Shown: positions 9,786-39,422 of the stretch, piece after piece
How the letters are laid out: each line of letters opens with the position of its first letter
Numbering within the stretch: position 1 is the first letter of the stretch
DNA from: Alligator mississippiensis
Taxonomy: Eukaryota > Chordata > Crocodylia > Alligatoridae
NCBI RefSeq assembly: GCF_030867095.1
Contig: NC_081827.1
Span: 48,086,001 to 48,150,000 of the forward strand
Direction: 5' to 3'
DNA length: 64,000 bases
Position numbers and translations under genes: made by a program
The notes under the pieces: generated by a model
Seen by the model: the letters and a program-made list of their open reading frames with translations, nothing else
Databases searched by the model: none
Told to the model about the DNA's origin: nothing

Positions 9786-9951
9786 GCAGTACAATGCCAA
9801 CAGGAAATATGTGCAAATTTGTTCCTAGAACATGGCACAGACCCTAATCTTGTTGATGGCAATACTGCCCTTCACCTTGCTGCCTGTATTCCTAATATAT
9901 CACTAGCTAGAGTTGTTTGAGTATGGTGTTGACACTGATGCACAAAATAAA
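9786..9951 (+). pseudogene. ANKRD26: Ankyrin-repeat exon of ANKRD26-like gene, frameshifted
   Basis: The acceptor TTTACAG lies just before 9786 and the donor GTAACT just after 9951. The first frame reads AVQCQQEICANLFLEHG, DPNLVD and GNTALHLAA, an ankyrin repeat with its TALH core. About two codons usually present before GNTALH are missing. After the ISLA segment (near 9910) the frame is lost: the continuation LFEYGVDTDAQNK is read only after a one-base shift, and the original frame meets TGA. The exon is 166 nt, not a multiple of three, unlike a phase-0 to phase-0 ankyrin exon. It is decayed unless the assembly has an error. Confidence 0.8.
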
Positions 9952-10937
9952 GTAACTGTTTACTTTCAGAAAAACAGAATAAATTTTACCTTCAAGTTTG
10001 GAAAGGGTACATCCTTATACAAAAACACTGTTCTCATTTTGGGGTTTTTGAGAGTTTCCAAAGAGATTCTCTTTTAAAATTCCTTTTATTCAGAAACTTC
10101 ATGCTTGAATTATCATGGCTATAATTGTACTTTTTTAAAAAGATTACATTAGTGAAACAGCACCTGTGACAAGGAAGAATGGATGACTGAGAGACCCTCT
10201 GGACTTTTCATGAATCATACACAGCGTATCACACTATGTAGTGTGGTGGCCTTTTTAAAGAAATTGCCAACATCCTTTTTAAAGGCAACACTTGGCAGCA
10301 GTACTGTTGCTAGCAGTACCAGGAATCAGGAAAAAGAACTAAGGCCAGATTTACACTACAGAAGGCTTTCCTGGTATAGGTGTACTGGGGTACCATAACA
10401 AGTCCATGAGGAGTTTGTGGTGTTGACCTGGCCTAATAATAACTGAACCCTCTAAAGTGTTTTCATAGAGCTGTATCTCTGTATGTACATAGCCCCATAA
10501 ATTTGTGAGCTCTGCTCCAGATGCTTAAAGCTTCAGGATCCTGGATTATATCAGCAGTTCCAGACTTCATAAGCAGAGTTCTGGAATTAGGAATTGAATT
10601 AACTAAAGGAGATTATAGACTGTCATCAGCAGTCACTCACCAATTCTGATTTGCAAAGAAATCAGAGTAAATGATACATAATTAATCAAGGAACTTTCCC
10701 CCATCTTATAGCTACAAGGACTCATCCCTACCCCTGCACTATAGTAGAAATTCTTTGGAGAACTTTCACAAACCCTAGTGGTTTACCAGCCACTGTGGGG
10801 AAGACACCCTAGTAAAACTATGGAGTGAGCCTCTCACCTACAAGAATGGGGATAGTGGGGGGAGTAAGTGGATGTTATCTCCTGTTTAAAAAATGCTATC
10901 ATTGTATTTAGTAGAGAGGTGGTAGCCTATCAACTGA
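9952..10937. other. Intronic stretch, no recognised feature
   Basis: Intron between the ankyrin exon and the Helitron-like segment. No exon or element ends were recognised. Confidence 0.45.
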
Positions 10938-11075
10938 ATCTATAATAATAATAGGCTTAGTCTGCCTGTCTGAAGCACTCTGATTGGTTGTCTTGGCAGG
11001 CAATCACAATGCTTACTGAAACAACCAATCAGATTACTCTGGACAGAAAGAATAAGAGTGTTATTATTATAGATC
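10938..11075. repeat. Imperfect palindrome, terminal part of Helitron-like element
   Basis: TCTATAATAATAATAGGC at the left pairs with GTTATTATTATAGATC at the right, and inner arms CTCTGATTGGTTG and CAACCAATCAGA also pair. The order TATAATA, AGGCTTAGTCTGCCTGTCTG, CTCTGATTGG matches the start of the element at 58882, so both are ends of one family. Confidence 0.6.
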
Positions 11076-11940
11076 CTGAGGCATTTGAAACAGATATGCA
11101 GGCAAGTCAGAGCTAGAATGAAGCACCAAGGCCTCCTGCCATGGAGCAGGCAGGCTCTGCCAAAGAAGCGGGGGGAGTGGTGAAGGGCCCAATCCTTTTT
11201 TTTTTCCCCAGAGCCTGCCTACCTCTCCCATGCCTGGGGGGCAAGCACCAGCAGGCCTTGAGCTGTGGTGGGGCTTCCCTCTGTGGCAGCAGCACCCCCT
11301 GAGTGGGGAGCCAGCAGGTGGGTGCTGCCCAGGGGCACTGCCATTGCAGAGGGAAGCACAGGAATCCCCCACAGCTCAAGGGCTGCACAACCTGCCAGCT
11401 GCTCACTCCCTGGCTGTGAGAGACACAAACAGGCTCCAAGTGGGGGGGGAGGGGCGGAGATCAGGCCCCTCGCCACTTCCCCCCACCCCCCCCCCAGCAG
11501 AACTTGCTGTGTGAGCTGCCACCGGGTCATGCAGCTCCTGAGCTGTGGCGGGTCTAGAGCTTTCCTCGGTGGTGGTGGTGCCTTCCCTGGGGCTGCCCAG
11601 GTGGGGTGCTAGCTACACAGGTGCAGCCCCAGCTCACAGACAACACCCACGAGATCCAACAGTGACCAGAATGCTGGAAGCTCAGACATGCTCCCAGAAG
11701 CTCGGGCTTGATGGGCTTCCAACATCCATGCACTATCCCCACCACCTTCCTGCCACCTGGGACCACCCAGGAATGGGTGGGCTGCCCCAGGAAGGTGGCA
11801 AGAGGGTGGCTGGGTATGCTGGTGGCTGGAGAAGATGGTGCACAGGGCACTGTGGAAGCCCACCAAGCCGAAGCTTCCCTGAGCACGTGCAGTCTTCCAG
11901 TGCCCTGTACGCCATCCCCACTGCCTTCTCTAGATAGGGG
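11076..11940. repeat. GC-rich repeat body
   Basis: GC-rich, purine/pyrimidine-biased sequence that gives overlapping open frames on both strands without any domain. It resembles in style the body of the element at 58990-59880. I treat all frames in it as spurious. Confidence 0.5.
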
Positions 11941-12125
11941 CCTTGTATGCATGAGGAATATCACTGTAATTTGTTACATAGCAAACTAAGATAAATGGGA
12001 TGTGTTTTAGTTTGCTACATAAAAAAGTCATTTAAATCAAAATATACTGCTGAATATATAGTGTACACTGTTACCAAATGTAATCATAACATACTGCCAA
12101 ATGTGTACACTGTTACACAGTTAAA

Positions 12126-12332
12126 TTGTTTAAAAGGGCAATTAAACCACTAAAAGGGGCAATTTCCTCATGTGTACAAGGGACCTCTTATTCTATGCCT
12201 ATAAACAAGTCTCAAGGTCAGACTTTTGACAAAAAATATATTCATGAGCCTGTGCTTACTCATGGACAGCTTTATGTAACCTTTTTGAAGGTGAGAAGTT
12301 TTGATTCTGTTATTCAGTCAAAGGATAACTAA
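12126..12332 (+). pseudogene. Pif1/Helitron helicase C-terminal fragment
   Basis: The frame reads INKSQGQTFDK then HEPVLTHGQLYV and VRSFDS before a stop. This is the last conserved block of the SF1B helicase domain of Pif1 and of Helitron Rep-helicases (motif with INKSQGQT, then the GQLYVALSRV-type motif VI). Just upstream a KGQFP block, expected shortly before this motif, lies in another frame, so at least one frameshift is present. The arginine-containing SRV of motif VI reads LKV here. It is a dead relic, about 60 residues of an enzyme that would normally exceed 1000. A host PIF1 retrocopy is less likely because Helitron-like repeats lie directly upstream. Confidence 0.75.
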
Positions 12333-37649: not shown

Positions 37650-38085
37650 GGCTGAAGACTCTGACTGGGATGTGCCAATACTCCTGCTGAGACTTACACC
37701 CGGAGGTTCCTTGCCTCTCCACTCAGAGTCAGACCAATCACTACATCTGGGGTCACAAAGGAATTTTACCCCATGGTCTGATTGGTATACACTATGGGGG
37801 TTTTTGCCTTTGTCTTTAAGGGGAGTATAGCCCTCTTCCTGGGATCTCTTGAGCATATATTAACAACCTTTACAGAAGTAGAACATTGGTTTTACCTGTA
37901 GCAGGTTAAGGTGTTGTGTTGTCATGTTCTGTGTTGTGTCAGAATTGACTGTATACTTGTGTTATGAGGACGAACAATAGATTTGTGTAAGATGGTTTGG
38001 ATCGGGCTGTTCCTGCCTCAGGGAGGAGGTTAGACTAGATGACCTATGGAGGTTCTCCAGCCCTACTTTTCAATAGGTGCCTATA
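37650..38085 (+). mobile_element. CR1 3' fragment
   Basis: Ends with GGAGGTTAGACTAGATGACC and CCTCCAG-type sequence, the CR1 3' hallmark. Upstream blocks (TGCCAATACTCCTGCTGAGA, CCCATGGTCTGATTGG, TGTGTTGTGTCAG) match the inverse of 41938-42400, so both belong to one CR1 subfamily. Confidence 0.75.
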
Positions 38086-38435
38086 GGCATGCAGCGAGAC
38101 TACTCCAACACACTGTAATTACAGCACATCGGAGTCGACTCAATTAATTGAGTCTACTGGAGCATGGTAATCACTGCACTCCAGCAGACTTCAGAATCAC
38201 ATGTATCAATATCCCCATGCTGAAAGATGGCAGGGGCATTTTAACTAAAGCTTGTTTGATGAGCTTTAGTTAAAGCACCCCCACAGCCATTTTTCAGCAC
38301 AGGGACATTGATACATGTGATGATCCAGGTGCATTAATTAGAGCGACTCTCAGAGCCACTCTAATTAAAGTGCCTGCTCCCCCTCCCCCCCCCCCCGCCC
38401 CCACTTCCTGGAGCATGTCTATAAATGCCCTATGG
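38071..38435. mobile_element. MITE-like element, inserted at CR1 3' end
   Basis: Left AGGTGCCTATAGGCATGC pairs with right GCATGTCTATAAATGCCCT. The core has ACTCAATTAATTGAGTCTACTGGAGCA, also present in related form at 1315-1335, and a palindrome around AGCTTGTTTGATGAGCT. Confidence 0.55.
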
Positions 38436-38694
38436 TTCTAGATGTACCAAAATAACTGTACATGGAATTACAGAATGTAATATCAGCCTACTTCTACAAA
38501 GACTATATTTAAAACTGGTTAGTTTTGTCTTAAATAACAGCATTACTTTCTTAGTAATATTAACATAATTACTAAGAATATGTAAGTCAGTATGTATTCC
38601 ACATAGAGATATCTGGGGTTCTATTTTCATGTCATTCGATTTTAGGAAGCCTACCTTCTGCTGAATTGGCCTATCTGTATGGATTTATGCTTTC

Positions 38695-38880
38695 TGGGTG
38701 CATCTACATATCTGCTTAATTGTGCCATAGACTAATTTGCTGCAGTATAAAGCACCCCAGTCTACACTTGCAATGCATTAGACTGCAACAAATTTTCACT
38801 GCCATAAGATAGCACTGTTGGGGATGGTACTATCTTACTGCAGTGAAAATAATTGCTCTTAATCCATGGGGTTGCCCCAA
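38695..38880. mobile_element. MITE with GTGCATCTACA end
   Basis: Starts GGGTGCATCTACATATCTGC and contains the inverse pair TTTTCACTGCCATAAGATAG / CTATCTTACTGCAGTGAAAA. Same family as 26078-26256. Confidence 0.55.
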
Positions 38881-39249
38881 AGTATAAGATACAATACCTG
38901 ATACCCTAAAGGTATTCAAAGCACAACTCCTTCTATTTGAGTGATGGCTTACATTAATAATTGGAATATATATTTTTATACTTCTGGGATAAAAATTATT
39001 TTTGTTGTATAAAATTTAAAATACTTGCACATCTGTAATAAAATGAATTTAGCATCTTAGAATTCATTTTCAAAAATCTGCTTCCGGGTCACAGTATAAA
39101 ATGGCTGGATTTTAAAATTTTGATTTTCTGTTAATTCTGAAAAGCTGCCAACTGCCAACTTTTTAACTGGCTGAAATATCAGTAGGTAAAATTCCTGGTA
39201 TGTACATGTATGAATTTTGCTTTTAAAGTAATGTTAAATTCCGGGTTTA

Positions 39250-39422
39250 CTCTGAAACAAGAAAAAAAGTGGATGAGTGCAGCAATTCCATATGAAAAAA
39301 CAGAGAACAACTAATAAAGAAAGAGGGTCAACACTGTAAAGAGATGGAGGAGATGCAACAATTTGAACTAACCCTGAGGGTCTAAAAATGGAGTTGTGAA
39401 CATTGGGAAATCACCTGAAAGA
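39250..39422 (+). pseudogene. ANKRD26: Decayed coiled-coil exon of ANKRD26-like gene
   Basis: Pieces in three frames follow the family order: TLKQEKKWMSAAIPYEKT, then EQLIKKEGQHCKEMEEMQQFELTLRV, then LKMEL, a TGA in place of an arginine codon, and TLGNHLKE before GTTAAG. Family members have a continuous coil of LKQE...EQL..KEE...TLR..ELRTVRNNL type at this point. Frameshifts lie near 39302 and 39380 and the stop near 39395. The acceptor is not clear. In the family this exon directly precedes the one at 43341, so the decay stops just before the intact part. Confidence 0.7.

Follow-up and report, generated by a model that had tools for sequence, protein, structure and literature searches.

The American alligator genome holds two copies of ANKRD26. 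One is intact; the other has a neutral front and a frame-constrained back. The latter is, with good probability, a living, fast-evolving, ankyrin-free paralog which goes back to a truncated duplicate. It lies in the 64,000-nucleotide stretch analysed here as a whole (the window, C4:48086001-48150000). That it has a promoter, is translated and has a function is what we infer. A sequence-only reading had called the locus a half-dead gene. The decayed front and the open C-terminal half (C-half) have stood; however, the locus is a duplicate truncated at its 5' side, in which exon 1 was not found, rather than ANKRD26 itself decaying from its front end.

Two copies of ANKRD26

Searches of the genome returned two copies of the coiled-coil exon E2, one in the window on C4 and one on C5, where the intact ANKRD26 is located at about 76.46-76.58 Mb. 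This answered the question raised by the sequence-only reading, whether a second, intact ANKRD26 is present elsewhere in the genome. Both copies have the exon order and phases of ANKRD26, with three exons absent from C4.

6985..62328 (+): homology collinear with C5 ANKRD26, introns included (blastn chain; C5 side from 76462494)

Identity in this chain was 74-89% in most blocks, and the collinear intron homology comprised 42 blocks within the region used as a clock. Past the window homology extends to window coordinate 94552, with a weaker block of 70% to 104371. An additional 246-bp match to the ANKRD26 locus at 4335-4580 may be a repeat. A processed retrocopy was ruled out as introns are kept and alignable; because they are common to both copies the C4 copy is a segmental duplicate. 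Homology sets in within intron 1 of the intact gene (C5 exon 1 at 76458998). Exon 1 with the start codon had no counterpart at E<1 in C4:48046001-48200000 (154 kb, 44 kb upstream). Probably, then, the C4 copy is a 5'-truncated duplicate which lacked exon 1 and promoter from birth. In a protein tree it clustered with crocodilian ANKRD26 (support 98-99; the trees contained no mammalian sequences). By this sequence comparison, the ANKRD26 duplication predates the Alligator-Crocodylus split.

Decayed exons and open exons

Lesions were scored by comparison, at DNA level, with the intact C5 gene of the alligator. The sequence-only reading had recognised ANKRD26 exons with frameshifts at 9786, 13510 and 39250, and lesions were found in each. 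The ankyrin-side remnants are:

9487..9543 (+): remnant of ankyrin exon, aa 89-107, 19 codons, no indel or stop (tblastn and codon alignment); the first part of this exon (aa 69-88) is without recognisable homology
9786..9951 (+): decayed ankyrin exon, aa 108-165; 6-nt and 2-nt deletions
13510..13616 (+): decayed ankyrin exon, aa 166-200; one nucleotide inserted and another deleted
15873..15923 (+): remnant exon, aa 297-313, 17 codons, no indel or stop
20498..20533 (+): remnant exon, aa 314-324, 12 codons, no indel or stop; donor GT lost
20620..20694 (+): remnant exon, aa 325-349, 25 codons, no indel or stop
30302..30439 (+): remnant exon, aa 842-887; two stop codons
39246..39424 (+): decayed exon, aa 960-1020; 3-, 1- and 1-nt deletions and one stop; last recognised exon ahead of the border

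The exon at 30302-30439 and the four short lesion-free stretches (9487, 15873, 20498, 20620) are additions to the earlier list. The spacer between the exons at 20498 and 20620 is an intron, not an insertion, because it is also found in the intact gene. In the 804 bp of remnants we counted 7 indels and 3 stops, where neutrality predicts 6.7 and about 3.6; 48 of 246 amino-acid sites differ (aa 76-88, without real homology, excluded). Thus, the front half of the C4 copy decayed at about the neutral rate. With its frameshifts and stops, and with no match to exon 1 at E<1 in the 154 kb searched, the C4 copy does not qualify as a gene with exon 1 and working ankyrin repeats.

From 43341 on the exons are open:

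43341..43487 (+): E1, the first exon free of lesions, aa 1021-1069; splice sites AG/GT, phase 0
48297..49253 (+): E2, 957-nt coiled-coil exon, aa 1070-1388; Pfam CCDC144C, E 1.6e-137
52018..52170 (+): E3, aa 1389-1439; intact splice sites, alignment to the C5 gene
52668..52722 (+): place where three exons (aa 1440-1574, 135 codons) dropped out in frame, between 52170 and 53197; blastn chain and intact-gene exon map
53197..53309 (+): E4, from aa 1575; acceptor position as in the intact gene
54780..54921 (+): E5; splice sites AG/GT, aligned to the intact gene
56045..56335 (+): E6; splice sites AG/GT, aligned to the intact gene
60188..60423 (+): E7; splice sites AG/GT, aligned to the intact gene
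61425..61671 (+): E8; Pfam DUF3496, E 1.6e-06
84434-84479 in window coordinates, beyond the window (+): E9, intact
90317-90465 in window coordinates, beyond the window (+): E10, intact, ends at the native stop codon

The eight exons from 43341 described earlier were confirmed: exactly 2286 nt, no stop, fitting phases and AG or GT at all 16 splice sites. E9, E10 and the three-exon loss are new; for the latter, about 5.5 kb of C5 (76537954-76543482) had no match in the C4 copy. Together E1-E10 comprise 826 codons with neither indel nor early stop, and exon lengths are equal in both copies. None of the ten exons has lost a splice site, and the native stop is preserved. DNA identity of E2 to the intact gene is 92.2%. 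A new splice acceptor of E4 was considered and dropped, the exon boundary being identical in the intact gene. A protein (P0027) annotated on an alligator contig of 44.29 Mb, which has the length of neither C4 nor C5, is given as 100% identical to the C-half. This model is at least partly wrong because three residues are missing at the E4/E5 joint and its final exon is absent from ANKRD26.

Constraint on frame and on amino acids

As a neutral clock we used the introns of both copies (23,390 aligned bp, K80 0.177, 389 indels, i.e. 16.6 per kb), and for expected lesions the intron divergence was split equally between the two branches. For the C-half on the C4 branch this predicted 20.6 indels, 16.3 of them frameshifting, and 9.5-11.5 stops. 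None was seen (P of none 8e-8 for frameshifting indels, 1e-5 to 7e-5 for stops). The ratio of lesions to missense changes was 8:45 in the remnants versus 0:112 in the C-half (Fisher p 8e-5). The contrast between front and back is far above chance. Since the expected indels and stops are absent, the border is so sharp owing to selection that keeps the frame open, and the earlier claim of selection on the C-terminal half only is borne out.

An ordinary unprocessed pseudogene throughout, its C-half open by luck, would fit the clearly decayed front, the overlapping pairwise omegas of the two halves and the C-half value of 0.517 (0.39-0.70), which alone is compatible with a neutral C4 branch because a main-gene omega of about 0.2 predicts about 0.6 under neutrality. 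It would, however, have to confine lesions at the neutral rate to the front and leave the C-half free of them, and is very unlikely. As both copies reside in one genome, the C5 gene could have cleaned the C-half by gene conversion. The C-half dS of 0.169 (0.13-0.21) is, however, near the intron divergence; we rejected this explanation, which is scarcely credible.

On amino acids selection is weak; that on the C-half acts mostly on the frame. On the C4 branch dN divided by half the intron divergence was 0.73-0.80 (0.62-0.95) in the C-half and 0.93-1.04 (0.65-1.33) in the remnants. The sequence-only reading had named a dN/dS of about 1 in the coiled-coil exons as evidence against it. The branch value and the pairwise 0.52 come close to this, yet the missing indels and stops rule out neutrality. 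C-half substitutions were conservative (mean BLOSUM 0.33 versus about -0.15 for the null, p about 0.001); the mean in the remnants was -0.31 (difference p 0.008). They seldom placed a polar residue at conserved hydrophobic sites in the C-half (4 of 176, 13.7 expected, p 0.0017). Counted in one way for both parts, the figures were 4 of 184 in the C-half and, for the remnants, 6 of 59 (p 0.015). Codons at conserved hydrophobic sites had a pairwise omega of 1.07. Half of the C-half changes disregard the constraint that the family shows at each site (uniform share 0.51, as opposed to 0.00 in 10 of 10 comparisons in other lineages); with a smaller reference set the share was 0.39 versus 0.53 in the remnants. 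Charge changes made up 0.39 in the C-half versus 0.42-0.43 under neutrality, and 0.10-0.18 in five functional controls.

Such extensive amino-acid change with neutral-like charge changes would also be expected from the main rival, a recently dead gene: a C-half functional for most of its history which lost expression too lately to collect lesions. By our own arithmetic, 0 lesions versus about 26 expected would allow for as much as about 12% of the branch without selection on the frame. Yet the locus bears no sign of death, from the splice sites of ten exons to the native stop, and an older annotation placed a protein model there. We consider recent death improbable and a living paralog the likeliest explanation.

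The ORF 40632-40953 resembled a recruited first exon: it ends in ATG followed by GTAAGT, in phase with E1. Searches in Pfam, in solved structures and against 146 ANKRD26-type proteins (E 0.01) returned nothing; in a protein search all 19 candidates fell short of E 10, eligible proteins being only about 0.55-1.75 times the length of the 807-residue padded query. Over its first 70% the ORF matches intron sequence of the C5 gene; the end and the donor are beyond the alignment break. Within the aligned part both copies have an open frame, as did 10 of 631 intronic starts in a one-frame control, all ten at 17788-18562 in a LINE-like stretch. Because the 33 mismatches of this part are spread evenly over codon positions (10, 11, 12) it shows no selection. 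With no homolog in these searches and no sign of selection the ORF was rejected as recruited first exon; it remains a weak lead. A CpG-rich stretch at 32.5-34 kb was unsupported as promoter in a scan covering 29-45 kb. Among non-exon windows before E1, 1 of 111 had an identity of at least 0.94 (40332-40431), versus 4 of 1274 overall; the most similar of those before E1 do not stand out.

Proposed history and known counterparts

In an ancestor of living crocodilians about 120 kb of the ANKRD26 locus, beginning in intron 1 and ending about 4 kb downstream of the final exon, was probably copied to another chromosome-sized contig. The duplicate would have arrived without exon 1, start codon and, presumably, promoter. 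Therefore, the ankyrin half would have been useless and free to decay at a rate close to neutral. Expression of the C-terminal coiled-coil half could have come from a start, new or internal, that lies upstream of 43341. Since then selection has held ten exons open to the native stop, tolerating most amino-acid changes and the in-frame loss of three exons. Probably, the C-half still yields a coiled-coil protein; it would be ankyrin-free, have up to about 826 residues and, by analogy, might enter ANKRD26 complexes or compete with them.

The C4 copy is like ANKRD26 (alligator C5 and sauropsid orthologs) in C-half exons, phases, Pfam CCDC144C and DUF3496, and native C-terminus. It is unlike it in that exon 1 was not found, the ankyrin repeats decayed, three coiled-coil exons were lost and evolution is fast. 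The mammalian CCDC144 genes are ANKRD26 relatives with the coiled-coil half but without working ankyrin repeats. The parallel to them drawn by the sequence-only reading holds for architecture only, an open ANKRD26 coiled-coil half without the ankyrin half. Because the C4 copy groups with crocodilian ANKRD26, though in trees without mammalian sequence, an independent origin is indicated. Among the literature matches listed no paper dealt with the relation of CCDC144 to ANKRD26.

Primate POTE proteins keep ankyrin repeats and are without much of the ANKRD26 C-terminal half; the C4 copy is the reverse. Like it, the POTE genes are fast-evolving ANKRD26 duplicates, with Ka/Ks <1 but above the mammalian paralog average (PMC7073761). 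With introns to serve as clock and the intact sister copy as ruler, the C4 copy is a clean case of one neutral and one selected half. It demonstrates that frame and amino-acid constraint are separable in coiled-coil proteins; because the two come apart, dN/dS alone would misjudge it.

In thrombocytopenia ankyrin-less human ANKRD26 forms occur that, like the C4 copy, consist of the COOH-half with coiled coils, and a fusion was detected as protein (PMC12347728). According to the same paper, truncated ANKRD26 raised ERK phosphorylation in earlier work cited there; the fusion study itself was unable to show this. Unlike the C4 copy these forms are driven by a foreign promoter in patients and are not a fixed gene (PMC12347728). 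Tentatively, and with less than even confidence, we propose a crocodilian-specific gene born by truncation, a fast-evolving, ankyrin-free partner or decoy of ANKRD26. Its rod would be selected and its surface charge free, and it might modulate distal-appendage and PIDD1 signalling or have a germline role, as a natural counterpart of mammalian CCDC144 and of the human disease forms that lack ankyrin repeats. The C-terminal half would be a separable functional unit if crocodilians and mammals each gained an ankyrin-free ANKRD26 half on their own. This would bear on the disease mechanism of truncated human ANKRD26.

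Two ANKRD26 loci and the annotated proteins

The exons of the C-terminal coiled-coil half (C-half) carry the Pfam domains CCDC144C and DUF3496. In the 2.35-Gb assembly exon E2 had two matches, one in the window on contig C4 (C4:48086001-48150000) and one at C5:76535481-76536437; the search produced 2679 first-look candidates, of which 125 were scored. A second, intact ANKRD26, which the sequence-only reading had raised as a possibility, does exist in the genome: the exons of the full-length alligator protein P0029 (1981 aa; 85% identity to the joined C-half exons over the best stretch) map to C5. 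The annotated P0027 (ANKRD26 isoform B, Alligator mississippiensis) was listed with 100% identity to the joined exons; three residues are missing at the E4/E5 joint and its tail differs. The final exon of the P0027 model, 64254-64361 (C4:48150254-48150361), lies just past the window and has no ANKRD26 counterpart. The true last exons were located 20-26 kb further on. Because the model ends in the exon at 64254, P0027 misses the real C-terminal end; it is probably mis-modelled.

Exonic features of the window copy of ANKRD26 (amino acids numbered as in the intact protein)
9487-39424, + strand: ankyrin-side remnants, in order, aa 89-107, 108-165, 166-200, 297-313, 314-349, 842-887 and 960-1020 (protein-to-DNA alignment)
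43341-61671: E1-E8 of the C-half
84434, past the window: E9, intact acceptor and donor
90317, past the window: E10, intact acceptor and native stop

Decayed front half and intact reading frame

The sequence-only reading had proposed a decayed ankyrin part followed by an intact coiled-coil part, and both observations held. Aligned to the intact gene's DNA, the 804 bp of remnants contained 7 indels (5 frameshifting) and 3 stops; for aa 201-296, 350-841 and 888-959 a convincing match was absent in a tblastn of the whole window (best chance-like E 1.6-2.2). E1-E8 amounted to 2286 nt or 762 codons with zero stops and AG/GT at every border. The copy has also lost, in phase, three exons (135 codons) that the intact gene has between E3 and E4.

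The introns served as a clock. Non-exon sequence differed between the copies by 15.6% (K80 0.177; 23,390 aligned bp in 42 blocks), with 389 indel events, 79% of which were not multiples of three. The window branch was taken as half of the total divergence. Under neutrality the 2478 bp of the C-half would then have acquired 20.6 indels, 16.3 of them frameshifting, and 9.5-11.5 stops; none of either was observed (P 8e-8 and P 1e-5 to 7e-5, respectively). With no lesion seen where about 26 were expected, our own arithmetic puts the part of the branch without frame selection at no more than about 12%. For the remnants 6.7 indels and about 3.6 stops were expected, and 7 and 3 were found; within the error of small counts they have been neutral since about the duplication. 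Set against missense changes, the remnants had 8 lesions to 45 and the C-half had 0 to 112 (Fisher p 8e-5).

Other features of the window were noted. An open frame at 40632-40953 is in phase with E1 and ends ATG|GTAAGT; the 70% of it that aligns to an intron of the intact gene is an open frame there too, with differences even over the three codon positions. It may be a relic exon, a repeat or chance. A CpG-rich intronic stretch, 32500-34000 (observed/expected about 0.6, GC 0.53-0.55), looks by eye like an inserted LTR-like repeat. Reverse-transcriptase-like open frames at 17158-19461, 22621-23421 and 46605-46964 resemble, judged by eye, CR1 LINE fragments.

Constraint on the amino acids

Separate dN/dS values, proposed earlier for the two halves, could be computed for both, but did not part them. 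Pairwise omega by maximum likelihood was 0.517 (0.39-0.70; dN 0.087, dS 0.169; 826 codons) in the C-half and 0.605 (0.36-0.99; 258 codons) in the remnants; omega alone therefore does not separate the halves. Most changes at sites identical in turtles and birds were in the window copy, 66 against 15 in the intact gene for the C-half and 33 against 2 for the remnants. Tree branch lengths were 0.137 for the window copy and about 0.047 for the intact gene. Relative dN of the window branch was calculated with the neutral rate set to half the intron divergence. It was 0.80 (0.67-0.95) or 0.73 (0.62-0.87) in the C-half with a main-gene share of 0.185 or 0.255, and 1.04 (0.73-1.33) or 0.93 (0.65-1.19) in the remnants with a share of 0.05 or an arbitrary higher 0.15. 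Constraint on the C-half is weak but detectable, with overlapping intervals for the two halves.

The 112 changed C-half sites out of 738 had a mean BLOSUM of 0.33 versus about -0.15 under random mutation (p about 0.001); remnant changes were less conservative (-0.31, n=45; permutation p 0.008). Conserved hydrophobic residues had become polar at 4 of 176 C-half sites (13.7 expected, p 0.0017); by one common count it was 4/184 versus 6/59 in the remnants (p 0.015). Against constraint, omega at the codons of conserved hydrophobic sites was not low (1.07, 0.65-1.75), and the share of charge changes in the C-half was 0.39 versus 0.42-0.43 by chance and 0.10-0.18 in five functional lineages. Also against constraint, the scarcity of new Pro/Gly in the C-half reached significance with some mutation spectra and not with others (p 0.02, 0.004, 0.03, 0.10, 0.36, 0.52), and C-half changes tracked family site rates only in part (uniform share 0.51, LRT 15.5, 40 reference sequences); in comparisons of other lineages the uniform share was 0.00 in 10 of 10. 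With 19 reference sequences the C-half gave 0.39 and the remnants 0.53, so the site-rate test alone does not separate the halves. Taken together, the C-half pattern fits a coiled coil that has to keep its rod form, with its surface free or its partners changed. Changes of the CpG-decay type (Arg to Gln/His/Cys/Trp or Thr to Met) numbered 17/112 in the C-half (43341-61671) and 3/45 in the remnants.

Origin of the copy and ankyrin-free relatives

C4 and C5 aligned by blastn as a single collinear chain on the same strand, introns included. Its 3' end was at main (C5) position 76583233, some 4 kb downstream of the intact gene's stop codon; a weaker block (70%) extended it to 76583642, and the matches listed showed nothing more as far as main 76590000 and window coordinate 114000. 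At the 5' side the first long block joined main 76462494 to window 6985, with a 246-bp match at main 76461257. The homology does not reach the intact gene's exon 1 (C5:76458998), and a search of C4:48046001-48200000 gave no counterpart of that exon with E below 1. On the simplest reading the duplication broke in intron 1, hence the copy was born without start codon and promoter; alternatively, exon 1 may have been present at first and lost later. C-half residue 36 (in E1) is methionine in the window copy and isoleucine in three crocodilian ANKRD26 proteins; this in-frame ATG (GAA ATG GAA) could be a putative start codon. The block at window coordinates 70654-72097, outside the window, had 89.9% identity and 3 gap openings between the loci, most other blocks being near 80%; it may be a repeat that inserted separately at each locus, or an element under constraint.

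In two C-half trees (25 and 41 sequences) the ANKRD26 proteins of A. mississippiensis, A. sinensis and Crocodylus porosus formed a clade (support 100) that excluded the window copy, and this clade and the copy together were separated from turtles, squamates and birds (support 98 and 99). Given this position, and provided that its long branch is not misleading, the copy should predate the divergence of Alligator and Crocodylus.

Among open-licence papers, the best 10 of 290 matches included no report of a crocodilian ANKRD26 copy, and none contained the word ANKRD26; among the matches listed for CCDC144 together with ANKRD26 there was likewise no paper on the pair. According to PMC11984956, ANKRD26 is located at the distal appendages of centrioles, and it recruits PIDD1. 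PMC12347728 describes a patient in whom ACBD5 was fused to the COOH-half of human ANKRD26 and the fusion protein was detected; raised ERK phosphorylation was not demonstrable in that study, and earlier work cited there had found it raised by truncated ANKRD26 without ankyrin repeats. The ankyrin-free half is thus able to act. The POTE genes, as described in PMC7073761, are ANKRD26 descendants with raised Ka/Ks.
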